From Gordonia polyisoprenivorans (GTDB lineage: Bacteria; Actinomycetota; Actinomycetes; Mycobacteriales; Mycobacteriaceae), in contig NZ_CP072203.1 of NCBI RefSeq assembly GCF_017654315.1, positions 744,001-808,000 on the forward strand: a stretch of 64,000 nucleotides of DNA. The letters are read 5' to 3'. Position numbers and translations under genes: made by a program. Of this stretch, positions 25,781-45,056 are shown one piece after another. The notes below the pieces were generated by a model, which saw only the letters and a program-made list of their open reading frames with translations, was not told where the DNA came from and ran no database searches. Positions within the stretch are counted from its first letter, which is position 1. The number at the start of each line of letters is the position of its first letter.

Positions 25781-25803
25781 GGGAGGGTTCTTTCGGGTCG
25801 GGG

Positions 25804-26652
25804 TCAGCTGAAGACGACGGTGCTGGTGCCGTTCATCAGGACGCGATTCTCGCTGTGCCAGCGCACGGCTCGCGAGAGCGCGAGTGCCTCGGCGTCGCTG
25901 CCGACGGTGGCCAGGCGGCGCGGGTCGTGGGTGTGGTCGATGCGGATCACCTCCTGCTCGATGATCGGTCCCTCGTCGAGGTCGGGGGTCACGTAGTGCG
26001 CGGTGGCGCCGACATACTTGACACCTCGCTGGTGTGCCTGGTGGTAGGGCTTGGCGCCCTTGAAGCCCGGCAGGAACGAGTGATGGATGTTGATCGCCCT
26101 GCCACGCAGCGCGGTACACGTCTCGTCGGAGAGGATCTGCATGTACCGGGCAAGTACGACGAGGTCGGCGTCGTACTCGTCGACGAGTCCGAGCAGTCGG
26201 GATTCGGCCTGCGCCTTGGTATCCGGGGTGACGGGCACGTGATGGAACGGCAGGCCGGCCGAGACCGCCATCGGTTCGAGAGCCGTGTGGTTGGACACCA
26301 CCGCGACCAGGTCGCCGCCGAGGGTGCCCGAGCGCCAACGGAACACGAGGTCGTTGAGGCAGTGGCCGAGCGTCGAGACCATCACCAGGATGCGTTGCGG
26401 CGCTTGATCGGTGATCGTGAACTCGGCGTCGATGCCGGCTGCGAGGTACTCGAAGGCGCGCGTCATGTCTTCGGCGCCGGCCTCGCGCGCGCACACGAAC
26501 TCGGTGCGTACGAACAACGTGTGGGTGAGCGGGTCGTCGAACTGCCGGTGATCGGCCACCTCGCATCCGTGACTGTAGAGAAACGACGAGACCGCATGCA
26601 TGATGCCGCTGCGCGACGGACAGCGCAGGGTGAGGATGAACGTGTCAGACAT
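25804..26652 (-). CDS. purU: Formyltetrahydrofolate deformylase
   Basis: A 282-residue enzyme hydrolysing 10-formyl-THF to formate and THF. It has an N-terminal ACT domain (residues ~1-80, LRCPSRSGIMHAVSSFLYSHG) and a C-terminal formyltransferase-like domain with INIHHSFLPGFKGAKPYHQA and GATAHYVTPDLDEGPII, carrying the catalytic Asn/His/Asp set. It overlaps soxG by eight bases and precedes the dimethylglycine dehydrogenase gene. In this operon it can drain the one-carbon folate formed by demethylation and return free THF to those enzymes. Confidence 0.93.
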   Translation of the reverse strand: MSDTFILTLRCPSRSGIMHAVSSFLYSHGCEVADHRQFDDPLTHTLFVRTEFVCAREAGAEDMTRAFEYLAAGIDAEFTITDQAPQRILVMVSTLGHCLNDLVFRWRSGTLGGDLVAVVSNHTALEPMAVSAGLPFHHVPVTPDTKAQAESRLLGLVDEYDADLVVLARYMQILSDETCTALRGRAINIHHSFLPGFKGAKPYHQAHQRGVKYVGATAHYVTPDLDEGPIIEQEVIRIDHTHDPRRLATVGSDAEALALSRAVRWHSENRVLMNGTSTVVFS

Positions 26653-27277
26653 GGCCGGGTCCTTCTGTGCGGGTGCGGTCTTCAGCTACCGCGGGGTTCT
26701 GGCAGTACTCCGCTGCCGCGTCGAGCAGCCAGTGGGCGAGATGGTCGGCGAAGGACGAACGAACCAGCAGGGCGAAACCCGACTCCGGGTCGTCGCCGGT
26801 GCGGTGCAGGATCACCCCGGTCTGCGCGAGCAGTGTCTGTGCGGCCTCGTTCGCACCGAACGAGGTCGGTGCGAGGTCGATCGCGCAGCCGTGTGCGAGG
26901 ACGGTGTGCGCATGCTCGCCCGCCAGGAGTACGCGGGTGCGCTGGCCGGTGGCATCCATCAGATAGGTGCCGGGTCGGGTGTCGGCGAGTCGCCCGGTGA
27001 CCTCGGCGAGATATTCGTGCCCGGGGATTCCGGGCCGGTACAGCAGCCATTCGTCGGGGCCCAGCCAGATAGCCACCTCGCCGTCATCCGCGCCGTCTCG
27101 ACGGACCTGGCACGCAGACGGCAGATCCAACCGCGTGATCGCGTCCTCGTCGGTGGTCCGCACCACCACCTGGGCAACGGGTGACTCGCATAGCCGCACC
27201 GCAGGGGCGAGGGCGTCGAAGGCGCTCGCCCAGCCGTGCAGGGGCGAGCGGGAGGTGCAGGTGTGCTCAGCCATCAC
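26645..27277 (-). CDS. soxG: Sarcosine oxidase gamma subunit
   Basis: About 209-210 residues; GTG at 27277 and ATG at 27274 are adjacent possible starts behind GGAGCTCGTC. It is the small GcvT-related subunit of heterotetrameric sarcosine oxidase. Visible family features are SRSPLHGWASAFDAL, LGPDEWLLYRPG, LMDATGQRTRVLLAG and the closing SFADHLAHWLLDAAAEY. Its start overlaps the end of soxA and its end overlaps purU, showing translational coupling. Sequence conservation in this subunit is generally low, but the position within soxBDAG makes the call secure. Confidence 0.9.
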   Translation of the reverse strand: MMAEHTCTSRSPLHGWASAFDALAPAVRLCESPVAQVVVRTTDEDAITRLDLPSACQVRRDGADDGEVAIWLGPDEWLLYRPGIPGHEYLAEVTGRLADTRPGTYLMDATGQRTRVLLAGEHAHTVLAHGCAIDLAPTSFGANEAAQTLLAQTGVILHRTGDDPESGFALLVRSSFADHLAHWLLDAAAEYCQNPAVAEDRTRTEGPGHV

Positions 27278-30092: not shown

Positions 30093-30379
30093 CGGCGTGG
30101 CCCGGGAACTGAGGTCGACACCGGGGCGGCCACCGGCGTGCCGGTAAACCGGTAGGTCACGGTGTCCCGGGTGATGGTGAACCACCGTCGGCAGCCGGCG
30201 CTGTGGCACCAGCGTTCGGCGAGAACACCTTTCGGGTTCGGACGGAAGAACAGATAGTCGGCCCACTCGTCGTCGTCGAGGGTCTGCGGCTGCGCGGGAT
30301 ACTCGACACCCGCGGCGGCGCCGTAATGGAACTCGGTCTCCTCGCGCGGCCCGCAGTGCGGGCAGGGAATCAGTTGCAT
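30089..30379 (-). CDS. soxD: Sarcosine oxidase delta subunit
   Basis: A 96-residue subunit with the zinc-binding cysteines expected for SoxD: IPCPHCGPREETEF at the N terminus and WCHSAGCRRWFTI near residue 65. YGAAAGVEYPAQP and DDEWADYLFFRPNPKG are also family-typical. It lies between soxB and soxA in the conserved B-D-A-G order, separated from soxB by 53 bases and overlapping soxA by four. The ATG at 30379 is preceded by GGAGAACCCC. It is a structural subunit of the cytoplasmic sarcosine oxidase complex. Confidence 0.93.
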   Translation of the reverse strand: MQLIPCPHCGPREETEFHYGAAAGVEYPAQPQTLDDDEWADYLFFRPNPKGVLAERWCHSAGCRRWFTITRDTVTYRFTGTPVAAPVSTSVPGPRR

Positions 30380-30432
30380 GGGGTTCTCCGGGCTTGGGTG
30401 GAGTCGATGATCTGCACTGGTGGGCCGGTGGA

Positions 30433-31704
30433 CTAGTGCGCCACGGCGGCCGCGCCGTGCTCGTCGATGAGTCGGCCGGTGGTGAACCGGTCGATGGTGA
30501 ACGGGGCGTTGATCGGGTGGGGAGCGCCGGTCGCGATGGTGTGGGCCAGGCACCATCCGACGGCTGGTGTCGCCTTGAATCCACCGGTGCCCCAACCGCA
30601 ATTGACGAAGAGGTTGTCGTAGGGGGTGGCACCGAGGATCGGGGAGGCGTCGGGGGTGACGTCGACGATGCCGCCCCAGGTCCGCAACAGCCGGGCGCGG
30701 GCGAAGATCGGGAACAGCTCGACGGCGGCGGCCATCTGGCGTTCGATGATGTGGAACGCGCCGCGCTGGCCGTAGCCGTTGTAGGAGTCGACGCCCGCAC
30801 CCATCACGAGTTCTCCCTTGTGCGCCTGGGAGACATAGACGTGCACCGCATTCGACATGACGACGGTCGGGTGGACGGGTTCGAGGAGTTCGGAGACGAG
30901 CGCCTGCAGCGGATGGGATTGCAGCGGCAAGCCGAAGCCCAGTTGATCGGTGAGAGTGGAGGTGTGCCCGGCCGCACACAGGGCGACGGTGCCCGCCCCG
31001 ATGCGCCCGCGCGAGGTGTTGACCGCGGTGACCTTCCCGTCGGTGGTCTCGAACCCGGTGACCTCGCAGTTCTGGATGATGTCGATGCCCGCGGTGCTGG
31101 CGCTGCGCGCGAATCCCCAAGCGACCCAGTCATGCTTGGCGATCCCGCCGCGCGGCTGGAAGGTCGCCCCCATGACCGGGTACCGGATGTCGGCGGAGGT
31201 GTTGACGATCGGGCAGATCTCGGCGACCTGTTTGGGGTCGAGCCACTCGGCGTCGATTCCGTTGAGCCGGTTGGCCTCGACCCGGCGAACGGAGTCGCGG
31301 ACGTCCTGCTCGGTGTGTGCGAGATTGAGAACGCCCCGCTGGCTGAACAGGATCGGATATCCGAGCTCTTCCTCGAGACCCTCCCACAGCTTCAGTGCGT
31401 GCTCGTAGATGCCTGCGCTCTCGTCCCACAGGTAGTTGGACCGGATGAGCGTGGTGTTGCGGGCCATGTTGCCGCCGGCGAGCCAACCACGTTCGAGGAC
31501 GGCGACATTGGTGATGCCGTGATTGCGGGCGAGGTAGTGGGCGGTGGCGAGCCCGTGTCCGCCGCCGCCGACGATGACGACGTCGTAGGTGGGTTGGGGG
31601 TCGGGGTTGTGCCAGAGGAAGTCTGGGTGCTCGGGGAGCCCGGCGCCGGGAGCGGAGCGAGCGGGCCGAATTGTGTCGGCGCCGGGAGCAGGGTCGGATG
31701 TCAT
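30433..31704 (-). CDS. soxB: Sarcosine oxidase beta subunit
   Basis: A 423-residue FAD-containing subunit that oxidises sarcosine. The dinucleotide fold [19 protein letters not shown] starts near residue 41, followed by [38 protein letters not shown] and the C-terminal [19 protein letters not shown]. The first ~33 residues are an unusual Pro/Ala/Gly-rich extension ([20 protein letters not shown]) whose DNA contains two copies of a short GC-rich repeat. The gene is eight bases from gbcB upstream. Confidence 0.93.
31641..31689. repeat. Short GC-rich repeat in the soxB 5' coding region
   Basis: CGGCGCCGGGAGC occurs at 31641-31653 and again at 31677-31689. The first copy continues GGAGCGAGCGGGCCGA. 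A near copy, CGGCGCCGGGAGC followed by GCAGAGCGGGCCGA, lies in a non-coding gap at about 58444-58470. The soxB copies encode most of a low-complexity N-terminal extension. Confidence 0.6.
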
Positions 31705-31711
31705 GGTGTCC

Positions 31712-32749
31712 TCAGAAATCGATGACGACGGGGGTGATGGGTTCGGAGCAGCAGAGCAGGATCTTGCCCTGCTCGATCTCGCGGTTGCGGATGCCGCCCT
31801 GATGGTTCATGACGACGTCGCCGGAGACCTTGGTGACCTTGCAGGAGCCGCACAGGCCGACGCCACAGGTCGAGGGCAGGGTGACGCCTGCGGCCGCGGC
31901 GGCGGCGAGGATGCTGCTGCCCGCGGTGACGTTGACGCGGCGGGCGCGGCGGGTGAAGTCGACGGTGATGCCGGGGCCGTCGTCGTCGGTGGGCGTGGGT
32001 AGGACGAAGCCGAAGCTCTCCTCGTGGATGTGGGCGAGAGTCGCGCCGGAGGCGACCAGTGCGGATCGGACGCCGCTGCGGAATTGGCCGGGGCCGCAGA
32101 GGAATACCTCACGGTCGGCGAGGTCGGGGCACATGCGTAGGAGGGTGTCGGCGTCGAGGCGCCGGGGAGCGGTTGCCGTCGGGTCGTCGAGATGTGCGCG
32201 GGTGAGCGCGAAGGCCACGTCGAGTCCGGGATGGGCGACGGAGAGTTGTTCGAGTTCGGCGCGGAACGGGATGTCCTCGAGGGTGCGGGCGCTGTGGATG
32301 AACACGATGTCGGTCTGCTCGCCGGAGCGGTACGGCCCGGACGTGGTGCCGTCGGTGGCGGCGCGGATCATCGACATGATGGGGGTGATCCCGCTGCCCG
32401 CGGAGATGAACAGGTAGCGTTCGGCGCCTTTGCCCATGTAGCTGAATCGGCCGAGGGGGCCGCTGGCGGTCATCGTCATGCCCGGTGTCATGTTGTCGTG
32501 CAACCAGTTCGACACGTGGCCGCCGGTCTTGCGTTTGACCGAGATGGACAGGGTGTCGGGGCGGGTGGGTGGTGAGGAGATGCTGTAGCAGCGTTGCACG
32601 GTGCGGCCGTCGATGGTGACCCCGATGGTGAGGAACTGCCCGGGGTTGAACACGAAGGTGTGGGGTTCGACGGTGCGGAAGGTGAATGTCGTCATGTCGT
32701 GGGTGGCCGGGGTGCGTTCGACGCAGACCAGCAGGTGTTCGTCGCTCAT
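31712..32749 (-). CDS. gbcB: Glycine betaine monooxygenase, reductase component
   Basis: 345 residues from the ATG at 32749, which overlaps the gbcA stop (ATGA). A FAD-binding ferredoxin-reductase domain comes first ([21 protein letters not shown] segment, [14 protein letters not shown]), then an NAD domain ([10 protein letters not shown]), and a C-terminal plant-type 2Fe-2S domain with the Cys cluster [13 protein letters not shown] plus a distal Cys in LLCCSEP. It passes electrons from NAD(P)H to the Rieske oxygenase encoded just upstream. Confidence 0.92.
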
Positions 32750-34092
32750 CAGGCGCTCTCCGGAATCTGTGACACCGCTTGCGCCACTGCAGGTGTGGTG
32801 CCCAGTGTGGTGCGCAATGTGGTGATGTACCAGTTGATGAAGGCCTCGACCTGGACCTCGGACGGGCCGTACGGGCCGGGAAGGTAGGCGGGGTCGGCGA
32901 TGCCCTGATGGGCGAGCGCGACGAGGTCGGCGTCCTGCTGGTTGGTGATCTCCCAGACGCCGGTCAGCCGGTCGAGGTCGTAGTCGATGCCTTCGACGGC
33001 GTCGGCGTGGACCAGCCACGTGGTGCGCACGAGGGTTTGGTCGGGGGCGAGCGGGATGGCCGAGAACAGCACGGCGTGGTCGCCGGTGATGTGTAGCCAC
33101 ATGTTGGGTTGCAGGTGCATCGAGAGGCGGCCGAGTCGGCGATCGGGAAGGGCGTCGGCGAGTGGGCGGGTGCAGGCGACGGTACCGTCGAGGGTGAACG
33201 ATTCCCCGGCAAGATCCATCGGCTCACGCTCGATGTGGAATCCGGTTGTGCGCGTGTCGAGTTGAACGATCCGGTCATAGGGAAGTCCGCGTTGTCGCCA
33301 CAGGTCGGTCATCTCGTCGGTGGCCTGACGATATCGGGCGGTGGCGGGACGGAGCCGTTCGGGGATGGCGTCGGAGTCGGCGAAACCCCAGATCGGGAAG
33401 AACACGTTGAGCAGTTCCGGATGCCCACCGCAGTGATAGCACTCGCGGTTGTTCTCCATGGTGAGTTTCCAGTTGCCGTTCTCGATGAGATCGGTCTGTT
33501 TGGCGACCTTGGCGTTCGCGAGGCCGTGGGGTTCGAGGTAGGGCGTGACGATCGCGGCGACCTCGTCGATGTCGGCGGGCGGCTCGTCGGCGAGGCAGAT
33601 GAAGATCAGCCCGGCGATCGTGCGGAGCGCGACCGGCCGGAGTGAGAAGCATTTCTTGTCGAAGCCGGGCGCCTGCGCGTCGGCGAACATCAGCCGACCG
33701 TCTATGCCGTATGTCCAGGAGTGGTAGGCGCAGACGATGGTGCCGGTGCTGCCGTGGTCGTCGGTGAGCAGCCGGGCGCCGCGGTGCCGGCAGACGTTGT
33801 GGTGGGCACGGACGACCTGCTCGTCGTCGCGGGCGATGATGACCGAACTTCGGCCGAGATTCACCGTGAGGTAGTCACCGGGCTCGGCGATCTCGGCTTC
33901 GGTGGCGACGAAGATCCACCGCTTGGCGAAGACCTCGTCGAGGTCGCGGTCGAACCACTCCCGGTCGACGTAGAACGGGGCGGGCAGGCTCTCGCCGACG
34001 ACGCGCTCGTCGAGGAGCGCTCTGGCGGCCGGGTCGAGTCGGTCGGATTCGGCTCCCGCCTCGGCGGCGCCCGCGACGACGTGTGCGGTCAT
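32749..34092 (-). CDS. gbcA: Glycine betaine monooxygenase, Rieske oxygenase component
   Basis: 447 residues from the ATG at 34092. The Rieske 2Fe-2S site is visible as CRHRGARL and CAYHSWTYG (residues ~95-125), and the mononuclear iron site as ENNRECYHCGGHPE near residue 212. With GbcB it demethylates glycine betaine to dimethylglycine and formaldehyde. An alternative upstream GTG (34128) has no good ribosome-binding site. It heads a run of eight minus-strand genes, seven junctions of which are tight. A conserved promoter-operator element lies 115 bases upstream. Confidence 0.92.
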   Translation of the reverse strand: MTAHVVAGAAEAGAESDRLDPAARALLDERVVGESLPAPFYVDREWFDRDLDEVFAKRWIFVATEAEIAEPGDYLTVNLGRSSVIIARDDEQVVRAHHNVCRHRGARLLTDDHGSTGTIVCAYHSWTYGIDGRLMFADAQAPGFDKKCFSLRPVALRTIAGLIFICLADEPPADIDEVAAIVTPYLEPHGLANAKVAKQTDLIENGNWKLTMENNRECYHCGGHPELLNVFFPIWGFADSDAIPERLRPATARYRQATDEMTDLWRQRGLPYDRIVQLDTRTTGFHIEREPMDLAGESFTLDGTVACTRPLADALPDRRLGRLSMHLQPNMWLHITGDHAVLFSAIPLAPDQTLVRTTWLVHADAVEGIDYDLDRLTGVWEITNQQDADLVALAHQGIADPAYLPGPYGPSEVQVEAFINWYITTLRTTLGTTPAVAQAVSQIPESA

Positions 34093-34207
34093 GGGAGATG
34101 AATGCCTCTCTTGGCCAGTGATTTTCACGTGGTAATCGATATGTGGATATGCGTACCGGGTGGGCGGGCTCCGCGAACCACCCCAGCGACCGCATCGGCG
34201 TCTGTAG

Positions 34208-34272
34208 TTGCACTATGCGCAACACCGCGCACGTGATGCAACAAGTGTGAAGTCTATGTCGGGCGATGTCAA
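34208..34272 (-). promoter_or_regulatory. gbcA promoter with conserved operator-like element
   Basis: Read on the minus strand: a perfect -35 TTGACA (34272-34267), a 17-base spacer and a -10-like CACACT (34249-34244). Directly downstream lies a 44-bp element (34208-34251) matching the one before betB at 33 of 44 positions without gaps. The element contains GTTGC-N7-GCAAC and TGCAACAAGTGT (plus-strand reading). A repressor bound there would overlap the start of transcription. Confidence 0.7.
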
Positions 34273-34378
34273 CCGGATCGGGGGCTGCTGTCGTGGCGCC
34301 GTCCGACTTGTCGGATCGACGAGTATTTCACCGGATGCTTGCCGCCGATTCCGGTGGACAAACCACTAGCCTGGCGGG

Positions 34379-36145
34379 ATGAAGCGGGGAGCGCTGACGC
34401 GGCTGGTTCCGCCGGCATTGGCCGGCTATCAGCGCTCGTGGCTGCGGACCGACCTGGTCGCGGGATGCACCCTCGCGGCCGTGGCGATCCCCGAATCGAT
34501 GGGATACAGCGCCATCGCGCATGTGCCGGTCGTCGCCGGGCTGTACACGATCATCCTGCCGACGATCGTGTTCGCGCTGATCGGCTCGTCCCGGCTGATG
34601 GTCGTCGGCGCGGACTCGGCGACCGCGGCGCTGCTGGCATCGGGTATCGCCGGGCTCGGCGTTGCGGGGCTGGTGCCGGACTCGCAGGCATGGCTGCAGT
34701 GGGCGTGCCTGATCGCGATCGTCACCGGTGGACTGCTCGCGGTGGCCCGACTCCTGCGCCTGGGATTCCTCGGCGACTTCTTGTCCACCTCGGTGCTCGT
34801 CGGATTCCTCGCCGGCACCGGTGTCACCGTCATGACCGGCCAGGTCCCGGGAATGCTGGGAATGTCGAGCACCGACGGGTCGATCTGGTCACGGTGGTGG
34901 GCGATCCTCAGCCACCTCGGCGACATCAACTGGGGAGCGGTCGGTTTTGCCGCGGTGACCCTGGTCGCGCTGCTGGCTGGCGGGCGCCTGATGCCCCGTT
35001 TCCCGGCCGCCGTCGTCGTGGTCATCGGGTCGATCGTCGCCGTTGCAGCCTTCGGGTGGTCCGAGCGCGTTCCGGTGATCGGCTCGGTCCACGGTGGCCT
35101 CCCGGACTTCGGGTGGCCGGGCGGAATGGGCTCGGGAGGAATGGGATTGGGGGAGATCGCCAAGGCCACCACCGTCGCATTCGGTTGCGCGCTGGTGATC
35201 CTCGCCCAGAGTGCCGCGACCGCTCGCAGCTTCGCGCAGCGGCACGGGCAGAACGCCGACATCAACCGCGACGTCCTGGGTCTGTCGGGGGCCAATTTGG
35301 TGGCGGGCTTCTCCGGCACCTTCGTCGTCAACGGCAGCCCCACCAAGACCCAACTCCTCGACGACCAACGCGGGCGGACCCAGGTCGCGAATCTGACGAT
35401 GGCGGTGATCGCGCTGCTGGTGGTGGTGTTCGCCACCGGCGTGCTGGCCCGTCTGCCGCATGCCGTGCTGGCGGCGATCGTGTTCCTGATCGCGCTGCGC
35501 CTCATCGACGTCCACGGCTTCGTCCGGATCTGTCGGGTCCGGCGGGTCGAGTTCGGTATCGCGGTACTCACCGCGGTCATCGTCGTGGTGTTCGGTGTGC
35601 AGGTCGGTATCGTCGCGTCCATGGTCGTCTCGCTGCTGGAACTGGTTCGACGCCAATACCGGCCCGAACGTTTCGTGCTGGGCGTCAGCGGTGGCGGCCG
35701 GCCACGGTACGAGTCGGCGACGCCGGGCAGCCAGTCGTTACCGGGCTTGATCGTGTTCCGGTACGACGCGGAGCTGTTCTACGCCAACGCCGGTCGCTTC
35801 TCCGACGACGTCATGCATCTGGTGAAGCAGGCGCCGGACCCCGTGCGGTGGCTGGTGCTCGACGCGTCGGCGATGACCGACGTCGACTATTCGGCGTCGA
35901 CGGTGCTCACCGACCTGATCGGCTACATCCATTCCCGCGGTGCGCATTTCGCGCTCGCCGGCGTCGATCCCGAGTTGCAGCAGACATTGCGCACCGACGG
36001 GATACTCGCCGAGTTGAATCCCGACCACGTCTTCGCCTCGCTCGAGGATGCGCTGCGCGCCTACCTACAGGCACATCCGGATTCCGCGCCGCCCGGATAC
36101 GATCCGTCCGCGCTCGACCTCCCACCGGAAACCCGGGGACACTGA
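34379..36145 (+). CDS. SulP-family anion transporter with STAS domain
   Basis: A 588-residue membrane protein. It opens with the SulP start region (WLRTDLVAGCTLAAVAIPES, then MGYSAIAHVPVVAGLYT) and has ten or more hydrophobic segments through residue ~425. The conserved VNGSPTKTQLLDDQRGRTQ lies near 325. A cytoplasmic STAS domain follows at ~445-560 (WLVLDASAMTDVDYSAS). SulP proteins carry sulfate, bicarbonate or other anions; the substrate here is not known. It lies between the two betaine operons but on the opposite strand. Its stop codon overlaps the start of the ligase gene by one base. Confidence 0.88.
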   Translation: MKRGALTRLVPPALAGYQRSWLRTDLVAGCTLAAVAIPESMGYSAIAHVPVVAGLYTIILPTIVFALIGSSRLMVVGADSATAALLASGIAGLGVAGLVPDSQAWLQWACLIAIVTGGLLAVARLLRLGFLGDFLSTSVLVGFLAGTGVTVMTGQVPGMLGMSSTDGSIWSRWWAILSHLGDINWGAVGFAAVTLVALLAGGRLMPRFPAAVVVVIGSIVAVAAFGWSERVPVIGSVHGGLPDFGWPGGMGSGGMGLGEIAKATTVAFGCALVILAQSAATARSFAQRHGQNADINRDVLGLSGANLVAGFSGTFVVNGSPTKTQLLDDQRGRTQVANLTMAVIALLVVVFATGVLARLPHAVLAAIVFLIALRLIDVHGFVRICRVRRVEFGIAVLTAVIVVVFGVQVGIVASMVVSLLELVRRQYRPERFVLGVSGGGRPRYESATPGSQSLPGLIVFRYDAELFYANAGRFSDDVMHLVKQAPDPVRWLVLDASAMTDVDYSASTVLTDLIGYIHSRGAHFALAGVDPELQQTLRTDGILAELNPDHVFASLEDALRAYLQAHPDSAPPGYDPSALDLPPETRGH

Positions 36146-37677
36146 TGCGTTTCTCGTCGGTGGTGCAGGCGTCGACCGCGGTTGCGGCGACACGCTCCCG
36201 CACCGCGAAAACCGCTGTGCTGCGCGAACTCCTCGCCATCGCCGCCGACGAGGTGGGTCTTGTGGTGGCGTGGTTGTCGGGTGAGATCCCGCAGGGACGC
36301 CTCGGAATCGGCTGGCGCACCGTCCGAGGAATCGATGCGGCGCCGATATCCGACGAGGAGTCGCTGCTGACGGTGGCAGAGGTCGACGACACCTTCACCC
36401 GGTTGGCGACGACGTCAGGTGCCGGGTCGGTGCCCGCCCGAGCGGAGTTGCTGGGCAACCTCTTCGGCCGCGCCACCGCCGACGAACAGAACTTCTTGCT
36501 CAGGCTGCTCACCGGCGAACTGCGGCAGGGTGCGCTCGCCGGGGTGATGGTGGAGGCGATCATCGCGGTGTCGGATCAACCCGCACCACTGGTCCGTCGA
36601 GCGCACATGCTCACCGGGTCCCTGTCGGAGACCGCGACGTCGGCGATCGACGGTGGCCGTGCCGTCTTGGAAGGCATCGGCCTGCAGGTGGGGCGGGCGG
36701 TGTCGCCGATGCTGGCGACACCCGCGGAGGATCTCGACTCGGCGTTGGCGAGTCTCGGACCGGATCTCGTCGTCGACCACAAACTCGACGGAGCCCGCAT
36801 CCAGGTGCACCGCGACGGTGATGAGGTGGCCGTCTTCACCCGTACCCTCAACGACGTGACGGCACGGGTGCCGGATCTCGTTGCGGCAGTACGAGAACTG
36901 CCGCTGCGCTCGGTGATCCTCGACGGGGAGACCCTGACCCTGTTCGACGACGGCCGGCCTCGCCCGTTCCAGGAGACGATGAGTCGGTTCGGGTCGATGG
37001 TGGAGGAGGACGCCGGGGTCGACAGTGGTCCGCGGTTGTTGCGCCCCTTCTTCTTCGATTGTCTCCACCTCGACGGCGAGGATCTGATCGACCGGCCCCT
37101 CGTCGAGCGGCTCGACGCGCTGGATTCGTTTGCGCCGCATCTGCGGATCACATCGGTACGCAATCCGACGCCCGAGCAGGCCCGGCAAACCCTCGAGGCC
37201 GCATTGGCCGCCGGTCACGAGGGCGTCATGGTGAAGTCGTTGTCGGGACCGTACGCGGCCGGTCGACGGGGCAAGGCCTGGCAGAAGGTGAAGCCGGTGC
37301 ACACCCTCGACCTCGTCGTCCTCGCCGCCGAGTGGGGGTCGGGGCGCAGGACCGGATACCTCTCGAACATCCATCTGGGGGCACGTGATCCCGATGGTGG
37401 ACCCCCGGTGATGGTCGGCAAGACGTTCAAGGGGCTCACCGACAAACTGCTCCAGTGGCAGACCGAGGAGTTCCCGAAACACGAAGACCGCCGCGATTCG
37501 TGGACGGTCTACCTGCATCCCGAGATCGTCGTCGAGATCGAACTCGATGGTGTACAACGCAGTTCGCGGTACCCGGGTGGAGTGGCGCTCCGATTCGCCC
37601 GCGTGCTGCGGTACCGCCCAGACAAGACCGCCGACCTCGCCGACACCATCGATGCGGTGCGCGGGCTCCTGCGGTGA
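36145..37677 (+). CDS. ligB: ATP-dependent DNA ligase
   Basis: A 510-residue ATP-dependent ligase of the mycobacterial LigB type, similar in length to M. tuberculosis Rv3062. The N-terminal DNA-binding region covers ~1-190. The adenylation motif DHKLDGARIQVH carries the nucleotide-binding Lys213. ILDGETL, FFFDCLHLDG, EGVMVKSL and KAWQKVKP are motifs III to V, and an OB-fold domain closes the protein. It joins nicks using ATP. It overlaps the SulP gene by one base, so the two are probably co-transcribed although functionally unrelated. Confidence 0.93.
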   Translation: MRFSSVVQASTAVAATRSRTAKTAVLRELLAIAADEVGLVVAWLSGEIPQGRLGIGWRTVRGIDAAPISDEESLLTVAEVDDTFTRLATTSGAGSVPARAELLGNLFGRATADEQNFLLRLLTGELRQGALAGVMVEAIIAVSDQPAPLVRRAHMLTGSLSETATSAIDGGRAVLEGIGLQVGRAVSPMLATPAEDLDSALASLGPDLVVDHKLDGARIQVHRDGDEVAVFTRTLNDVTARVPDLVAAVRELPLRSVILDGETLTLFDDGRPRPFQETMSRFGSMVEEDAGVDSGPRLLRPFFFDCLHLDGEDLIDRPLVERLDALDSFAPHLRITSVRNPTPEQARQTLEAALAAGHEGVMVKSLSGPYAAGRRGKAWQKVKPVHTLDLVVLAAEWGSGRRTGYLSNIHLGARDPDGGPPVMVGKTFKGLTDKLLQWQTEEFPKHEDRRDSWTVYLHPEIVVEIELDGVQRSSRYPGGVALRFARVLRYRPDKTADLADTIDAVRGLLR

Positions 37678-38198
37678 GGGTGTGGTCCGATTCCAGCTTC
37701 GGCGCAAGCGGTCTCGAGGCTCGCCGCACGCGGCTCGCACCTCGACCAGCGGGGGAAAGACGACTCGCCTTTGAAGGATGCTCCGCGCTTCCCGCCCGAT
37801 GGCCGACCCACTCCGGTGGTCGAGGTGCCGAGGAGCGTTAGCGACGAGCCTCGAGACCTGGTGTGCCGACGGGTATCCGGGCCACGGTGGTTCGATTCTA
37901 GCTTCGGCACAAGAGGTCTCGAGGATCGCCGCACGCGGCTCGCACCTCGACCATCGAGGGGAGCCGTCTCATCCCGGTGGTCGAGGTGCCGAGGAGCGTT
38001 AGCGACGAGCCTCGAGACCTAGTGTGCTGAAGGGATTCCGGGCTACGGTGGTTCGTTTCCAGCTTCGGCACAAGCGGACTCGAGGCACCTCGACCATCGG
38101 GAGGGGACGGTTCTCGATCATCGGGGGAAGGTTGTCGACTATCGGGGCAGGCCGCTCGATCGCGAAACTACTCGAGTGTTTGGAGCAGGCGCCGCAAG
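37678..38198. repeat. Cluster of ~44-bp alternating intergenic repeats (cluster 4)
   Basis: The largest cluster, between convergent ligB and the DUF294-type gene. Copies alternate in orientation: reverse at about 37711-37750, forward at 37816-37859, reverse at 37912-37954, forward at 37976-38019, and a shortened reverse copy at about 38072-38101. The two forward copies are identical over about 44 bases (GGTGGTCGAGGTGCCGAGG ... CCTCGAGACC). Fragments of CTCGACCATCGGG follow to 38160. No coding frame is credible. Confidence 0.85.
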
Positions 38199-40043
38199 TC
38201 AGTTGAGGGGCACCGTGATTCGCGTGCGGACCCGGCGCTGGATGTCGCTGATCTCGCGAACGCCTTCGCTGAGCATGCTGCGTTCCAAGGGGGACAGGTC
38301 GCTGAGGACGATGACGTCTCCGGGGGTGTGGCCGGCGCGGAGTTGGGTGATCTGGTGACGAAGCCGCAGGCGCTGGGTCATCGCGAAAACCTCGTGCAGC
38401 AGTGAGGCTTCCGCGGAGGTGAGGGTGCCCACGTCGACGGCGCTGTGCAGGCGCGCAGGAGTGGGGGCGGAGGTGATGCCCGCAGTCAGGCCGGCCCAGC
38501 GCGCGAGGTTCACGATGGGTGCGATGACGTGCGCCTTCAGGTCGACGGTGCCGCCGCGTCGGGACAGGACGTCACGCAGGCTCCGTACGCGGGGCCGCAG
38601 CGACAGCGCGTTGAGTAGTTGCAGGCGTAGGGCTTCGGGATGGTCGGCGGGCATCGACGAGAATGCCGAGGGGGCTGTGTGCAGACTCTCGGGGCCGAGG
38701 ATGACGCGCCCGTCGATCAGCAGTGACGACATGATGAGACCGTGGTCGGCGAGTGGTGCTGTCAACCATCGGCGTGCCGCGAGCAGCCAGTCGTCGCAGG
38801 ATCGCGAGAAGCTCGGGGAGAAGGCGACGGCACCGTTGGTGTCGGCGGGTAGACCGCAGTCGTCGAGGATCGTGTGGGTGCGACGGGCCAACGCGCGGAA
38901 TTCGTCTGCCGAACGGTCGCCGTCGTCGATCCAGCTGAGGGCGGAGTCCACGTCGGAGGACGGCATGGCCTCCCGGCGCGCCACGCTACCCAGGGTGATC
39001 CAGGCGAAGCCCGACAGCTCGGGGTGGTCTTCGAGGGCGAGTTCGACGGCACGGCGGGCTGTGGTGTCGATGATCAACGACAGCACACCGCAGGTGGATT
39101 CGGCGTCGAGCCCCGCGCTGACGAGGTCATCGGCCAAGCGTGGCATGGCCTGGGTTGCCGATGCGAGTGCGGCGACATCGGTGGAATGAGCGATTCGTCG
39201 TTGCAGTGAGCCGCCACGGCTCGCGGCGACCAGCAGATCGGTCTCCTCGAGTACCCCGATGGCGCGGCCGCGCGGAGAACACACCGGCATGTGACGAACG
39301 CCGGCCTCCAACATCTCCAGCCAGGTGGTGATCGCGTAGCGCCCGGCGTCGACGGAGCGCGCCGGTGCGGTCATCACCTCGGCGACCGGCACACCCGGTG
39401 ATCGTCCGGCACCGACGACGCGGTGGGTGACGTCGCCTTCGGTGACGATTCCCAGTGTGCCGTCGGGCAACTCGACCAGCACACATGACTGCCCGGCCGC
39501 ACCCATCGCACGCACCGCCTCGACCACGGGCGTGTGGGGAGCGACGAACACCGGAGCGTCACGGATCAACGACGACACCCGCGTCGTCGACGACCAGCCT
39601 GCGGTGGGTGCGGGCCGGGCGGAGATGGACTGCCAGGCCGACTCGGCGAGAAAGGTCAATCCCGACCGTCTGCCGAGCACAACGCGTACCTCGTCGGCGG
39701 GCAATGCGATGGCCGACGCCGGCTCGGCAGCACGTGCGACGAACCGAGCCTCGCCGCCGATGATGAGCGGTATGTAACCGAACAACGCTCCTGGGCCGAG
39801 TGATTCGAACACGTCCGGGTGGTCGAGATCTGCTCCCGGAGCCGTCAGCTCCACCCGCCCGGAGCGGACCATGAACACCGCATCCGCGGAGCCGTCACCG
39901 TATTCGGCGATGACCTCGCCGGAACGGAATCGACGGATACTCGCGCCGGCGGCGATCCGTGCCAGCTCGTCGTCGGCCAGCTCCTGGAAAGGTGAATGGG
40001 CTCCCAGGAATTCGACGGTGTCGGAGTCCTCGGACCCGGCCAT
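38199..40043 (-). CDS. cNMP-binding/CBS/DUF294 nucleotidyltransferase-like signalling protein
   Basis: 614 residues from the ATG at 40043; a GTG directly before it abuts the stop of the choline dehydrogenase-like gene (TGA-GTG-ATG). Order: a cyclic-nucleotide-binding domain at ~10-130 (FRSGEVIAEYGDGSADAVFM), two CBS repeats at ~160-285 (MTAPARSVDAGRYAITTWLE), a DUF294 nucleotidyltransferase core with GSVARREAMPSSDVDSALSW near 350-370, and the DUF294 C-terminal helical domain. The GS...SDxD motif is that of nucleotidyltransferases such as PII-uridylyltransferase. Being last in the choline operon suggests control of transport or metabolism, but its target is unknown. Confidence 0.82.
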   Translation of the reverse strand: MAGSEDSDTVEFLGAHSPFQELADDELARIAAGASIRRFRSGEVIAEYGDGSADAVFMVRSGRVELTAPGADLDHPDVFESLGPGALFGYIPLIIGGEARFVARAAEPASAIALPADEVRVVLGRRSGLTFLAESAWQSISARPAPTAGWSSTTRVSSLIRDAPVFVAPHTPVVEAVRAMGAAGQSCVLVELPDGTLGIVTEGDVTHRVVGAGRSPGVPVAEVMTAPARSVDAGRYAITTWLEMLEAGVRHMPVCSPRGRAIGVLEETDLLVAASRGGSLQRRIAHSTDVAALASATQAMPRLADDLVSAGLDAESTCGVLSLIIDTTARRAVELALEDHPELSGFAWITLGSVARREAMPSSDVDSALSWIDDGDRSADEFRALARRTHTILDDCGLPADTNGAVAFSPSFSRSCDDWLLAARRWLTAPLADHGLIMSSLLIDGRVILGPESLHTAPSAFSSMPADHPEALRLQLLNALSLRPRVRSLRDVLSRRGGTVDLKAHVIAPIVNLARWAGLTAGITSAPTPARLHSAVDVGTLTSAEASLLHEVFAMTQRLRLRHQITQLRAGHTPGDVIVLSDLSPLERSMLSEGVREISDIQRRVRTRITVPLN

Positions 40044-40046
40044 CAC

Positions 40047-41612
40047 TCAGGTACCGGACCGGATCAGGTCGGCGCATTTCTCGGCCATCGTCATCACCGT
40101 GATGTTGGGGTTGACGATCGGCAGATTGGGCATCGCCGACGCGTCGACAACCCGTAAACCGCTGACCCCCTTGACCTTGAGCGTTGGATCGAGCACCGCC
40201 ATCGGGTCGCTGACGGCACCCATTCGCGCGGTGGCGGCCGGGTGGTAGACGGTGTTGTGGGTCTTGTGGAAGTAGTCGATGATCTCGTCGTCGGTGGTGA
40301 CGTCGGGGCCCGGGGCGAGTTCGCGGGCCACCCATTCCCGCAGCGGTGACTGCTCGGCGATCCGGCGGGCGAGCTTGACACCGGCGAGCATGACGCGTTC
40401 GTCGTGGCCGTCCGGATCGGTGAAGTAGCGCGGGTCGACCTTGGGCCGGTCCCGGAAATCCCGTGACCGCAGACGTACGGTTCCGCGTGATCGTCCCTGG
40501 GTGACGTTGGGGGTCAGGCAGAATCCGTTCTCGGTGGTCGGATAGCCCCAGCGCAGGGTGTTCATGTCGAAGGGCACACTGCCGTAGTGCATCATCAGAT
40601 CCGAATGGTCCAGCCCCTCCTGGGTGGTGGTGAACAATCCGATCTCCCACCACTGGGTGGAGTCGGTGACCATCGGGCGGGCGGCCTCCCAGAACACCAG
40701 TCCCTCGACGTGGTCGTCGAGATTCTCCCCGACGCCGGGGGAGTCGACGCGCACGGTCACGCCCATCTCGCGCAGATGCTCGGCCGGTCCGATCCCGCTG
40801 AGCATCAAGAGTTTCGGCGTATCGATGGCACCGGCGGTGACGATCACCTCGTGGTTGGCGGTCACCTCGTCATAGCCGGTGAGGTCGGGGCGTTGGAATC
40901 GAACTCCGGTGGCGCGCAACGAATCGTCGATTAGGATCTCGCTGATCCAGCTGTCGGTGAGCACGGTGAGGTTGGGGCGGGTGCCGAGAATGGGATGCAG
41001 GTACGCGTGCGAGGTCGACATGCGCTCGCCGGCCTCGTTGGCGTTGATCTGAAACCATCCGGCACCGTTGAGATGCCACTGGTCGCGATTGAACTGCACG
41101 GTGGGCAGACCGACCTTCGCGGCGGCGTCGAGGACGGCCTGGCCGCACGGGTCCACCGGCGGAACGTCACGCAACCGGACCGGTCCGTCATGGCCGTGCG
41201 GATAGCCCTGATAGTCGCCGTCGGCGACGTTGTTCTCGACGCGGGACACGTAGGGCAGCACGCCGTCGGGCCCCCAGCCGGTCGCGCCGGCCGCCTCCCA
41301 GTTGCGCAGTCCCTGGGCCAACGGCCAGAACGCGATACACGAATTGTGTGAGGAGCACCCGCCGAGCACCTTGGCGCGGGCGTGACGCATGAAGCTGTTC
41401 CCGCGCTCCTGTGGTTCGACCGGATAGTCCCAGTCGTACCCGGAGTCGAGTAGATGCATCCATTCCTTGAGTACCAGGATGTTCGGATCGTCGACGTCGC
41501 TGGGCCCGGCCTCGATCAGGCAGACCGTGACCGCCGGATCCTCGGAAAGGCGTGCGGCGAGCACACATCCGGCGGTCCCGCCACCGGCGATGACGTAGTC
41601 GTAAGAGGTCAT
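40047..41612 (-). CDS. betA: Choline dehydrogenase-like GMC oxidoreductase
   Basis: 521 residues from the ATG at 41612. It is a FAD-dependent GMC-family enzyme: DYVIAGGGTAGCVLAARLSE at the N terminus, the signature KVLGGCSSHNSCIAFW near 85, GAIDTPKLLMLSGIGPAEHL near 265, and the C-terminal HNTVYHPAATARMGAVSDP and VVDASAMPNLPIVNPN with the catalytic His/Asn pair. Alcohol substrates vary within GMC, but its position between a permease and betB strongly favours choline to betaine aldehyde. Confidence 0.85.
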   Translation of the reverse strand: MTSYDYVIAGGGTAGCVLAARLSEDPAVTVCLIEAGPSDVDDPNILVLKEWMHLLDSGYDWDYPVEPQERGNSFMRHARAKVLGGCSSHNSCIAFWPLAQGLRNWEAAGATGWGPDGVLPYVSRVENNVADGDYQGYPHGHDGPVRLRDVPPVDPCGQAVLDAAAKVGLPTVQFNRDQWHLNGAGWFQINANEAGERMSTSHAYLHPILGTRPNLTVLTDSWISEILIDDSLRATGVRFQRPDLTGYDEVTANHEVIVTAGAIDTPKLLMLSGIGPAEHLREMGVTVRVDSPGVGENLDDHVEGLVFWEAARPMVTDSTQWWEIGLFTTTQEGLDHSDLMMHYGSVPFDMNTLRWGYPTTENGFCLTPNVTQGRSRGTVRLRSRDFRDRPKVDPRYFTDPDGHDERVMLAGVKLARRIAEQSPLREWVARELAPGPDVTTDDEIIDYFHKTHNTVYHPAATARMGAVSDPMAVLDPTLKVKGVSGLRVVDASAMPNLPIVNPNITVMTMAEKCADLIRSGT

Positions 41613-41676
41613 GAGCGTGCTCAGATCCTTTCGGGGGTGAGGTGGCGAGGCGGGATACGACCGGCAGGACAGTCGC

Positions 41677-43245
41677 TCACAGTCCGCCGCCGATCTCGTC
41701 GGCGGTGGGCAGCTTTGTTGCGGTGGAGTGGGATTCGAGCACGCCGATGTGGCGACGGCCGACGGTGAGGTACCAGAGGAAGCCGACGCCGAAGATGATG
41801 CCGATGTAGACGAAGGCGCCCCAGGTGTTGTACCAGGGTTCGCCATAGATCTCCGAGCGTGGCCACGCGAGGTTGAGCGCCATGCCCACACCCCAGACCA
41901 CGGCGACGATGTTCACCGGCAGGCCCCACCGGCCCATGGTGAAGTATCCGCCCTCGGCCAGGTCCTTCGGCGGCCACTCCCCGCGAAACCGCTTGGCCAG
42001 CAACGGCCCGGTGACCAAGAGGTAGGCCAGGTAGATCATGATGATCGCGATGGAGGTCAGCACGGTGAAGATCTTGGGCTGACCGACATTGATGACCAGA
42101 ATGAGGACGGCGACGACCCCGATCACCAGCGACGGGATCACCGGAGTCTGCCGGACGGGATCGACCTTGGCGAGTTTCTCACCGAAGGGCAGGGCATTGT
42201 CGCGGGCCATCGCGAACATCAGCCGAATGGCCGCGGTGTGCACGGCCAGTGAGCAGACGAAGACCGCGACGACGATCGCGACGAGGAAGACCTTGCTCGC
42301 CGGCCCCCACATCACCTGCTCGACAATGTACTGCAGGCCACCGGAGGCGTCACCGAGCTTCGGATCCGACAGGTTCGGCGCGGCCATGATCGCGAATACC
42401 AGGATGGCACCGCCGATCACGAACGAGGCGAGAATGGCCCGCAGGATCGCCTTGGGTGCGGTTCGGCGGGGTTCGACGGTCTCCTCACCGAGCGAACTCG
42501 CGGTGTCGAAGCCGTACATCACGTACCCGGAGGCCAGCGACGCGATCAGGAACGCCCCAAGATAGCCGCTGCTCTCGCCCGCGCCATAGCCGTTGGTGGA
42601 GAAGAAGATCTGCGGACCACGAGTGATGTTGCAGGCCAGAATGATCGCGATCAACACCGCCGCGATCAGCTCGACGAACACACCGACGGAATTGATCAAT
42701 GACATCAGCCGGACGCTCCAGGCGTTGATGGCCGTGGTCAGAGCGATGAGGATCGCGCCAAGGATGACCGCATTGACCGCATAGTCGGTGGCATCGTCAC
42801 CGCTGCCGTAGATCTGGAAGCCGCTCCACAGTCGGGGCAGATTGAGCTGCATCGCCAGGGCGACCGCCGCGAGAGTGACCACCGATGCGGTGAACATCAG
42901 CCAGCCCGCCGACCATCCAACGCGTTGGCTCCCGAGTCGCTTGGCCCAGTTGTAGACCGATCCGGCCACCGGATATTTTGCGGCGAGCTCCATGAAACAC
43001 AGTGCGACGCAGAGCTGCCCGACGAAGACCATCGGCCATGACCACAGATAGGCCGGGCCGGCGTTGCCGAAACCGACGTAGAACAGCTGGAAGGTGCCGG
43101 TCAGGATCGAGATGTAGCTGACGCCCGCGGCGAAGCTGGCGAACTTGCCGATGGAGCGGTCGAGGGACTCCTTGTAGCCGAAGTCGGACAGGCCGTACGA
43201 TTCGTCCGCCGAATCCTTCGGCGCACCAGTGGGAGCTGTACTCAT
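41677..43245 (-). CDS. APC-superfamily permease, probable choline/betaine uptake
   Basis: A 522-residue permease with about twelve hydrophobic segments and the APC features PVAGSVYNWAKRLGSQR near residue 93 and YGFDTASSLGEETVEPRR near 244. It starts inside the betB stop codon (ATGA) and precedes the GMC gene by 64 bases, so it belongs to the choline operon. The substrate is probably choline or a related quaternary amine, inferred from context. It is not a BCCT-type BetT transporter. A general amino-acid permease is the alternative. Confidence 0.85.
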   Translation of the reverse strand: MSTAPTGAPKDSADESYGLSDFGYKESLDRSIGKFASFAAGVSYISILTGTFQLFYVGFGNAGPAYLWSWPMVFVGQLCVALCFMELAAKYPVAGSVYNWAKRLGSQRVGWSAGWLMFTASVVTLAAVALAMQLNLPRLWSGFQIYGSGDDATDYAVNAVILGAILIALTTAINAWSVRLMSLINSVGVFVELIAAVLIAIILACNITRGPQIFFSTNGYGAGESSGYLGAFLIASLASGYVMYGFDTASSLGEETVEPRRTAPKAILRAILASFVIGGAILVFAIMAAPNLSDPKLGDASGGLQYIVEQVMWGPASKVFLVAIVVAVFVCSLAVHTAAIRLMFAMARDNALPFGEKLAKVDPVRQTPVIPSLVIGVVAVLILVINVGQPKIFTVLTSIAIIMIYLAYLLVTGPLLAKRFRGEWPPKDLAEGGYFTMGRWGLPVNIVAVVWGVGMALNLAWPRSEIYGEPWYNTWGAFVYIGIIFGVGFLWYLTVGRRHIGVLESHSTATKLPTADEIGGGL

Positions 43246-44801
43246 TGATCGTCCTTCTGTTGATCATCCTCGCGCGGAGTGAACCACTGCGACGCCGACG
43301 GCGCGGTGTTGTGCCAGATATGTTTGTTCTCTTGGTATTCCGCGAGACCGGTGGGGCCGAGTTCACGTCCGTTGCCGGACTTCCCGAATCCGCCCCATTC
43401 GGCTGCCGGGGTGTAGTAGCCGAAGTCGTTGAGCCACACCGTGCCGTGGCGCAGGCCGCGCACCATGCGTTCGCCCAACGCGGCGTCGGAGGTGCGCACC
43501 CCGGCCGCCAGCCCGTAATCGGTGTCGTTGCCCAGGGTGAGTGCCTGCTCCTCGGTATCGAATCGCTCGACGGTGAGGATCGGTCCGAAGGTCTCGTCGC
43601 GGACCACCGACATCGTGCGATCGCAGTGGTCGAAGATGGTGGGCGCGAACCAGTATCCGCCGGGTGCGAGTCCCTCACGTTCGGGATGTCCACCGCCGCA
43701 GCGCAACTGTGCGCCCTCGGCGATGGCCGACGCGACGTGGGCGGTCATCTTGTCCAACTGGGCCTGCGACACCAGGGGACCGGTCTTGGCGGCCGGGTCG
43801 AGTCCGTTGCCCATGACGATCTGGTCGGCCCGGGCGACGAGGGCGTCGACGAAGTCGTCGGCGATCGATTCGTGGACGATGAGCCGCGTGCCGGATGAGC
43901 AGACCTGGCCCGAGTGCAGGAACACCCCGGCGAGTACCTGTTCGACCGACGAGTCCCAGTCGGCGTCGGCGAAGACGATGTGCGGATTCTTTCCGCCGAG
44001 TTCGACGGCGACCTTGGTGACGTGGCGCGCGGCGGTCTCGGAGATGATCCGCCCGGTGGCGAGCCCGCCGGTGAAGGAGATGAAATCGACCTCGTCGGTG
44101 TCGGTGAGGGCGGAGCCCAGCGAGGAGCCAGCTCCCTGAACGAGATTCAGCACACCTGCAGGCACACCGGCCTCCTCGCACAACCGGACGAACGCAATGG
44201 TGCTCAGCGGGGTGACCTCGCTGGGCTTGGCGACCATTGTGCAACCAGCGGCCAACGCAGGGGCGATCTTCCACGAGATCTGCAGAAGTGGATAGTTCCA
44301 CGGTGCGATCAGCACACAGACCCCGATGGGTTCGCGCACCACTCGGCTGATCACCCCGGGCACCCCGGTGTCGACGGCCCGATCGGCCTCGGTCTCCACC
44401 AGACTTGCGTAATAACGGAAAACCGATTCGACGTCGTCGATGTCGATCTCGCTCTCGGCCAGCGTTTTTCCGGTGTCGAGTGTCTCGATACGGGCGAGTT
44501 CGGCCTTGTCCCGAACGAGTAGATCGGCGATGCGGCGTAGCAGTGCGGCGCGCTCGGCGACCGGGGTGGCCGGCCACCGGCCGTCGTCGAAGGTGGTGCG
44601 GGCCGCCGCGATCGCCGCGGTCACATCCTCGGAGGTGGCCTCGTCGACTCGGATGAAGCTCTCACCGAGGGCGGGGTTGATGATCTCGCGGGTACCGCCG
44701 TCGGCGGCGTGATGCCACCGCCCGGCGGTGAACAGTTGGGCCTCGCCCAAAAGCGGCGATGAAAAGGTGTTCGACGAGACGGACTGATCGGTGGTGCTCA
44801 C
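43242..44801 (-). CDS. betB: Betaine-aldehyde dehydrogenase
   Basis: 519 residues from a GTG at 44801, chosen for GGAGAGG eight bases upstream. An aldehyde dehydrogenase with the catalytic Glu in VELGGKNPHIVF and the Cys in LHSGQVCSSGTRL. The late WLNDFGYYTPAAEWGGFGKS resembles betaine-aldehyde dehydrogenases. It would convert betaine aldehyde to glycine betaine, using the product of the GMC enzyme encoded two genes downstream. It is first in the operon. A conserved promoter element lies ~190 bases upstream and a tandem 15-bp repeat lies in the leader. Confidence 0.87.
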   Translation of the reverse strand: MSTTDQSVSSNTFSSPLLGEAQLFTAGRWHHAADGGTREIINPALGESFIRVDEATSEDVTAAIAAARTTFDDGRWPATPVAERAALLRRIADLLVRDKAELARIETLDTGKTLAESEIDIDDVESVFRYYASLVETEADRAVDTGVPGVISRVVREPIGVCVLIAPWNYPLLQISWKIAPALAAGCTMVAKPSEVTPLSTIAFVRLCEEAGVPAGVLNLVQGAGSSLGSALTDTDEVDFISFTGGLATGRIISETAARHVTKVAVELGGKNPHIVFADADWDSSVEQVLAGVFLHSGQVCSSGTRLIVHESIADDFVDALVARADQIVMGNGLDPAAKTGPLVSQAQLDKMTAHVASAIAEGAQLRCGGGHPEREGLAPGGYWFAPTIFDHCDRTMSVVRDETFGPILTVERFDTEEQALTLGNDTDYGLAAGVRTSDAALGERMVRGLRHGTVWLNDFGYYTPAAEWGGFGKSGNGRELGPTGLAEYQENKHIWHNTAPSASQWFTPREDDQQKDDQ

Positions 44802-44844
44802 GTGAAGTGGCCTCTCCGCGATGGTGGATGGTGTTCTCACGACT

Positions 44845-44874
44845 GGTGACGAAGACGGGGGTGACGAAGACGGG
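44845..44874. repeat. Tandem 15-bp direct repeat in the betB leader
   Basis: GGTGACGAAGACGGG occurs twice back to back (44845-44859 and 44860-44874), 44-73 bases upstream of the betB start and inside the predicted 5' leader. It could be a regulator site or a slippage product. The rest of the 44802-44990 leader shows nothing recognisable. Confidence 0.7.
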
Positions 44875-44990
44875 ATGAACATGACGAGACAGCGAACACG
44901 AACGAGTGCGTGGGACGCGCCCACGGTGGCGGTCAGGGCTCGCACGGGCGCGTGGACGTGCGCGAGCGCCTACGGACGACGGTTCTCGGT

Positions 44991-45056
44991 GTTGCTTCGT
45001 GCGCAACTCTGCGCATCTGTTGCAACAAGTGTTGTGCCAGCCCGGTGTTCTGTCAA
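44991..45056 (-). promoter_or_regulatory. betB promoter with conserved operator-like element
   Basis: On the minus strand: -35 TTGACA (45056-45051), a 17-base spacer, -10-like AACACT (45033-45028), then the 44-bp element at 44991-45034 that matches the gbcA element. It contains GTTGC-N7-GCAAC, the 10-bp palindrome TGTTGCAACA (45018-45027) and CAACA-AG-TGTTG (45023-45034). Orientation relative to the gene is the same as at gbcA. Confidence 0.7.

Follow-up and report, generated by a model that had tools for sequence, protein, structure and literature searches.

GbdR of Pseudomonas, a member of the AraC family, belongs to another regulator family than the IclR-type protein considered here. What the two may have in common is a tie to choline and betaine metabolism, described for GbdR in the sections of PMC3572970 drawn on here. 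For the IclR family, the sections used of the survey by Suvorova and Gelfand (2021; PMC8222616) describe a group 1 of regulators with 17-base-pair (bp) palindromes, built from 5-bp half-sites around a 7-bp centre with the consensus GKTYC, and report, for 94 of the 181 orthologous groups in the family, tandem sites with a centre-to-centre distance of 18-22 bp; such regulators control their own and adjacent operons, and tandem palindromes about two turns apart are read there as tetramer binding, with the dimers on one face of the DNA. Here we describe a stretch of 64,000 nucleotides from Gordonia polyisoprenivorans (contig NZ_CP072203.1, positions 744,001 to 808,000; hereafter the window) that carries on its minus strand a gbc/sox block (gbcA, gbcB, soxB, soxD, soxA, soxG, a formyl transferase gene, a dimethylglycine oxidase-like gene and iclR; 34092 to 22476) and a bet block (betB, a permease gene and betA; 44801 to 40047). 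A common promoter-operator element precedes both, at 34272-34207 ahead of gbcA and at 45056-44991 ahead of betB, likewise on the minus strand. On comparative grounds it is likely that this element is the tandem operator of the IclR-family regulator encoded at the end of the gbc/sox block, and that this regulator represses both promoters.

The geometry computed for the two promoters agrees with the coordinates, orientation, TTGACA, 17-base spacer and NACACT -10 given by the first-pass annotation (Table 1). Each operator palindrome is 17 bp long, about GTTGCGYNNNRCGCAAC; the first has in both promoters an intact left GTTGC and a right half that keeps just the GC of GCAAC, and the perfect GTTGC-N7-GCAAC, as well as the second motif named by that annotation, TGCAACAAGTGT, is present at gbcA and betB alike. 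The annotation had described a 44-bp element with 33 identities, of which the count stands and the length does not, the best ungapped alignment (gbcA 34248-34207 against betB 45032-44991) covering 42 bp. Palindrome 2 resembles the group 1 operators at both promoters in its 17 bp, its 5-bp half-sites and the 7 bp between them, and the tandem centres, 19 bp apart, fall within the published 18-22 bp; it differs in that GTTGC fits four of the five positions of GKTYC, with G instead of Y at position 4, and the window site differs further in that one half-site of palindrome 1 is degenerate. The annotation knew of no described site of this kind; tandem 17-bp palindromes are, in fact, on record for many IclR-family regulators in the sections used of PMC8222616. 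Judged by its sequence, the window site is not a new kind of site: in size, symmetry and tandem spacing it conforms to group 1, with a G variant.

Two further likenesses were considered. The motif TTTTTGCGCATAGCGCAAAAA, listed for TphR of Comamonas (terephthalate) in Table 1 of PMC8222616, contains TTGCGCATAGYGCAA, as does gbcA palindrome 2, and a TTGCGCATAG stretch occurs in the motif and in the window site; pathway and organism are different. The three-box sites of PcaU, PobR and HmgR, also of the IclR family, have an extra repeat beside a palindrome (PMC8222616, same sections), but their third box is an external half-site, whereas the extra GTTGC in the window is the left half of the second palindrome; a site of the PcaU/PobR type was rejected, this GTTGC repeating directly at a distance of 19 bp. 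The main text of PMC8222616, as far as the sections used extend, does not contain the words betaine, choline or sarcosine, and a literature search of incomplete coverage found no IclR regulator described for betaine or choline catabolism; the passages drawn on in PMC7434839, PMC6080646 and PMC3141670 mention IclR and betaine or choline apart, with no regulatory link.

Chance similarity between the two elements was rejected by shuffling and by a genome-wide search with the core. The match between the gbcA and betB regions scores 24; dinucleotide-preserving shuffling of both intergenic regions, repeated 1000 times, gave at most 16, and one of 903 same-strand pairs of 300-bp window tiles reached 25 (4500-4800 with 28500-28800, an ungapped match above that of the promoter pair). 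In the whole genome (6.03 megabases; G000 among the genomes compared), a 29-bp core with up to 3 mismatches matches just at gbcA and betB, and a control pattern matches nowhere. Two further sites, at 2608203 and 5730159, each with 3 mismatches to a longer pattern, were dismissed as chance, a reversed-pattern control also giving two matches.

Conservation was computed across 121 genomes, in which gbcA was matched at E 1e-60 or better at 21 places in 18 genomes. The check that the first-pass annotation had proposed, conservation of the element in related genomes, came out in its favour: the arrangement TTGACA, 17 bases, -10 and operator recurs with constant spacing at all 15 gbcA places of at least 71% identity (loci L003-L017), 130-262 bp ahead of the matched gbcA stretch, with TTGACA starting 28 bases ahead of a TTGTTGC-like stretch. 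The same switch precedes soxBA...iclR in G027 (L117, 6868-6913), a genome with no gbcA match at E 1e-60. For 14 of these 16 promoters (13 of gbcA and the soxB promoter of G027, those of G034 and G054 being left out as near-duplicates), the identity averaged over all pairs is 1.00 for the -35, 0.85 for the -10 and 0.70 for the element; the spacer has 0.43, and the flanking 60 bp on each side have 0.30. The expected transcription start, some 7 bases past the -10, would lie inside palindrome 1, and the placement over that start noted by the first-pass annotation fits a repressor; an element just after the -10 at invariant spacing would suit a protein that blocks polymerase. The IclR protein might instead act from the element as an activator or dual regulator, which we regard as unlikely, as in 16 of 16 promoters the operator stands downstream of the -10 at a fixed distance behind a perfect TTGACA, a position that would suit a roadblock over recruitment. 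Inverted repeats located in the presumed leader, as these are, might instead work in the RNA of the 5' leader, forming a hairpin attenuator or a riboswitch. However, the half-sites are nearly invariant and not covarying (by inspection of the aligned promoters, no covariation test), tandem palindromes of the same sort surround iclR genes on either strand, and no Rfam family reaches its gathering score in 20000-48000, by which a known RNA family was rejected. Such an RNA is extremely improbable, and the element is best read as an operator in DNA.

That this operator belongs to the IclR protein is indicated by the way in which the site was computed to track the IclR gene. A strict pattern, which spans the -35, a single base of the -10 and the first half-site and tolerates no mismatch, is present in all 15 genomes that have an IclR orthologue of at least 61% identity, against 2 of 106 others, G064 and G075 (nominal Fisher P 2.5e-17, relatedness ignored); the match in G075 is taken as chance. 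Around 46 of 47 IclR places (from 3 kilobases (kb) before to 3.8 kb after, 297 kb), the exact GTTGC-N7-GCAAC was found 17 times, two of the 17 being the gbcA sites of G003 and G064, already counted; spacings 2-6 and 8-12 gave 0-1 each. Around a second set of 80 named actinobacterial loci with relatives of the window IclR, a few of them common to the first set, this exact palindrome was counted 38 times, and each of ten other spacings gave 0-1. With 0-1 mismatch allowed, a site stands beside iclR at 40 of the 80 loci, against 1-11 for six control spacings. In all, 68 sites with 0-1 mismatch were counted around the 80 loci, 34 of which lie within 200 bp before the matched iclR start and 31 at +700 to +1100 from it, where those of L171 and L174 stand before the next gene. 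Tandem pairs, taken without regard to order, have their centres 19 bp apart in 32 of 53 cases and 18 bp apart in 8 (41 of 53 at 18-20 bp), and, at loose identity thresholds, 75 of the 80 loci have in their flank a gene related to choline, betaine, dimethylglycine or sarcosine or one for a Rieske GbcA-like protein.

The promoter layout also recurs in other genera, with the -10-to-operator distance about 1 base off that of the window. The strand could be resolved for 39 tandem pairs, which belong to 25 of the 80 loci. In 15 of them TTGACA, allowing no more than 1 mismatch, stands 22-30 bases ahead of the first half-site; the reversed hexamer gives a single case, and so does TTGACA placed closer to the site. 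These 15 come from 13 loci of Williamsia, Geodermatophilus, Modestobacter, Kitasatospora and Actinoplanes. An A...T hexamer resembling a -10 directly abuts the first half-site in 14 of the 39, is one base off, as in the window, in 2, and two bases off in 5. Another DNA-binding protein could in principle use the element, given that binding by IclR is argued from sequence comparison and that G064 keeps the site with an IclR of just 42% identity; yet in G064 the linked IclR gene and gbcA point away from each other on the two sides of the site, from genome to genome the site goes with the IclR gene, even in G027 with its lack of a gbcA match, and it stands beside iclR genes of several families in IclR-type geometry. 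We consider another protein quite improbable. The comparative evidence strongly supports both the single element for the two operons and the IclR protein, put forward as a candidate in the first-pass annotation, as its likely user. Separately, tandem sites of the GTGTTGCAC type were seen at L110, L111 and L121 (three genomes of one genus in another family), one of them beside a 28% GbcA-like gene, and no relative of the window IclR was found there at E 1e-15 in the stretch examined.

The window protein scores 58.9 bits for HTH_IclR and 139.9 bits for IclR_C (gathering scores 22 and 24), which places it in the IclR family, and its closest match among the 80 named loci is that of Gordonia oryzae (92%). 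Its best NCBIfam match is the model of BhcR, an IclR-family regulator (NF045644); with 188.8 bits against an equivalog cut-off of 350, identity with BhcR was rejected. Glyoxylate looks unlikely as the effector because the Asp and Cys positions of Escherichia coli IclR and AllR, which are glyoxylate contacts, are Ala in the window protein when aligned to 1tf1. We take TM0065, which gives the published numbering of the recognition helix, to be 1mkm. On alignment to 1mkm, with the numbering of Table 5 in PMC8222616, helix positions 27-30 of the window IclR are His-Lys-Ser-Thr; in the sections used of the same source, His27 is predicted to go with a G/C pair at motif positions 10/22 and Lys28 with one at 7/25. 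These would be half-site positions 4 and 1 in our reading of the published numbering, both G here, and on that correspondence the two residues appear to agree with the published predictions. The IclR proteins of G064 and G108 have Phe in place of the Ser, yet both go with GTTGC sites.

Several observations weigh against the assignment of the element to this regulator. The GTTGC form is absent at six places with gbcA paralogues of 52-58% identity, of which those in G003, G028 and G025 show GTTYC-like repeats and those in G033, G075 and G090 none that could be recognised. The regulators beside the GTTYC-like repeats keep His27 and Lys28, and the IclR of G064 has Arg at position 28, yet goes with a GTTGC site; a simple recognition-helix code that splits GTTGC from GTTYC was rejected by these regulators together with G064 and G108. 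The stretches searched beside iclR gave no palindrome with 0-1 mismatch at 40 of the 80 named loci, nor did 10 kb in four genomes of the same genus with an IclR of 55-56% identity (G058, G038, G026 and G036), which have no gbcA at E 1e-60 and do carry a Rieske gene of 29% identity and a gene for dimethylglycine oxidase. Close IclR orthologues mostly have no site directly before iclR, the iclR-adjacent sites coming mainly from homologues of about 45-56%. As for the GTTYC-like loci themselves (L099, L100 and L102, in G003, G028 and G025), TTGACA and then the repeats stand ahead of gbcA paralogues 52-55% identical, and an IclR of 41-44% identity lies nearby; they are perhaps a diverged sister switch.

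Taken with repression by IclR as the favoured reading, the data allow a model to be drawn. We infer that each block is transcribed as an operon and that two IclR dimers, or one tetramer, would bind over the transcription start and the first transcribed bases, and that the bound protein would keep RNA polymerase off the gbcA and betB promoters. A compound of the pathway (choline, betaine, dimethylglycine or sarcosine) would release it. Because iclR is the last gene of a block that it would itself repress, the circuit would form an autoregulatory loop. In the clade of the window, the bet block stands apart with its own copy of the switch, and in some relatives both blocks lie behind one copy.

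The arrangements on which the last point draws differ among genomes. In G054, G017 and G009, betB, the permease gene and betA follow the gbc and sox genes on the same strand and precede iclR, with one site found, ahead of gbcA; a contig break falls inside betA in G009, and iclR heads the other contig beside a betA fragment. Contig breaks hide the middle in G048, where betB, permease, betA and iclR are together, and in G064 gbcA, gbcB, betB, permease and betA lie behind one site. The bet block of G000, G034 and G001 stands separately behind a site of its own, and the flanks examined in the remaining 7 of the 15 gbcA genomes showed no bet block. The gene for an anti-sigma factor is upstream of gbcA in G054, G009, G048, G017 and G006 and beside betB in the window, a difference which suggests that the bet block came to occupy the former site of the promoter and that a copy of the switch was made. 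A rearrangement of this sort, which probably separated the bet block, would also permit the two promoters to be alike simply by descent from one promoter that was duplicated, without sharing a regulator; unselected sequence should, however, drift alike, and the -35/-10 spacers are identical at 4 of 17 positions, against 33 of 43 for the -10 and element. Duplication alone was rejected on this contrast, and descent with no regulator in common is very improbable beside a shared IclR operator.

Table 1. Promoter-operator features and genes of the two blocks, in window positions
Feature	Position	Strand	Basis or remark
-35 hexamer TTGACA, gbcA promoter	34267..34272	-	Identical in all 16 promoters aligned
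-10 hexamer CACACT, gbcA promoter	34244..34249	-	17-bp spacer
Operator palindrome 1, gbcA	34226..34242	-	GTTGC-N7-GCGCG, right half degenerate; 1 base after -10
Operator palindrome 2, gbcA	34207..34223	-	GTTGC-N7-GCAAC; centre 19 bp from palindrome 1
-35 hexamer TTGACA, betB promoter	45051..45056	-	
-10 hexamer AACACT, betB promoter	45028..45033	-	17-bp spacer
Operator palindrome 1, betB	45010..45026	-	GTTGC-N7-GCGCA, right half degenerate; 1 base after -10
Operator palindrome 2, betB	44991..45007	-	GTTGC-N7-GCAAC; centre 19 bp from palindrome 1
gbcA, glycine betaine monooxygenase oxygenase subunit (Rieske)	32749..34092	-	Top match NF058607, 401 bits, below equivalog cut-off of 670
gbcB, reductase subunit	31712..32749	-	Top match NF058606, under its cut-off
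soxB, sarcosine oxidase beta	30433..31704	-	TIGR01373, over its cut-off
soxD, sarcosine oxidase delta	30089..30433	-	
soxA, sarcosine oxidase alpha	27267..30200 (start approximate)	-	TIGR01372, 1125 bits, slightly below cut-off of 1164
soxG, sarcosine oxidase gamma	26645..27277	-	
Formyl transferase domain protein	25804..26652	-	Perhaps formyltetrahydrofolate deformylase
Dimethylglycine oxidase/demethylase-like protein	23327..25876 (start approximate)	-	FAD oxidoreductase and GcvT domain
IclR-family regulator, last gene of gbc/sox block; proposed binding protein	22476..23267	-	Pfam HTH_IclR and IclR_C; co-occurrence with site
betB, betaine aldehyde dehydrogenase	43242..44801 (start uncertain, GTG 44801 or upstream)	-	Top match TIGR01804, 559 bits, below cut-off of 669
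Amino acid permease-type transporter, bet block	41677..43245	-	
betA, choline dehydrogenase-like GMC oxidoreductase	40047..41612	-	

Some neighbouring genes deserve mention. The permease, whose top match is a model for the permease of a urea carboxylase system, under its cut-off, stands between betB and betA in relatives as well and is a candidate choline or betaine importer. Directly after betA lies a gene (38199-40046, minus strand) for a protein with cyclic-nucleotide-binding, CBS and DUF294 nucleotidyltransferase-like domains, which sits between betA and iclR in G072 and G025 and is a recurrent member of choline clusters. A SigK-type ECF sigma factor and its neighbouring anti-sigma factor are encoded just upstream of betB (45126-47364, minus strand), and a SulP transporter gene (34379-36145, plus strand) is divergent from gbcA in the window and lies within 4 kb of iclR in G017, G006, G048 and G009.

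We lean towards the view that actinobacteria have their counterpart of GbdR in a single IclR subfamily with a single promoter-operator layout, and that operons which split take a copy of the switch along. If this is true, a layout of TTGAC, a -10, a degenerate palindrome and a perfect palindrome 19 bp on would govern, in genera from Gordonia to Streptomyces and Geodermatophilus, the breakdown of choline, betaine, dimethylglycine and sarcosine. The analysis puts forward a likely regulator for choline and glycine betaine catabolism in actinobacteria, with its probable operator and regulon, and the motif could be used to annotate this IclR subfamily across many of them. The locus may also provide an example of a separated operon that carries its own copy of the switch, and, with two promoters, one protein and a handful of candidate effectors, it offers a clean test case.

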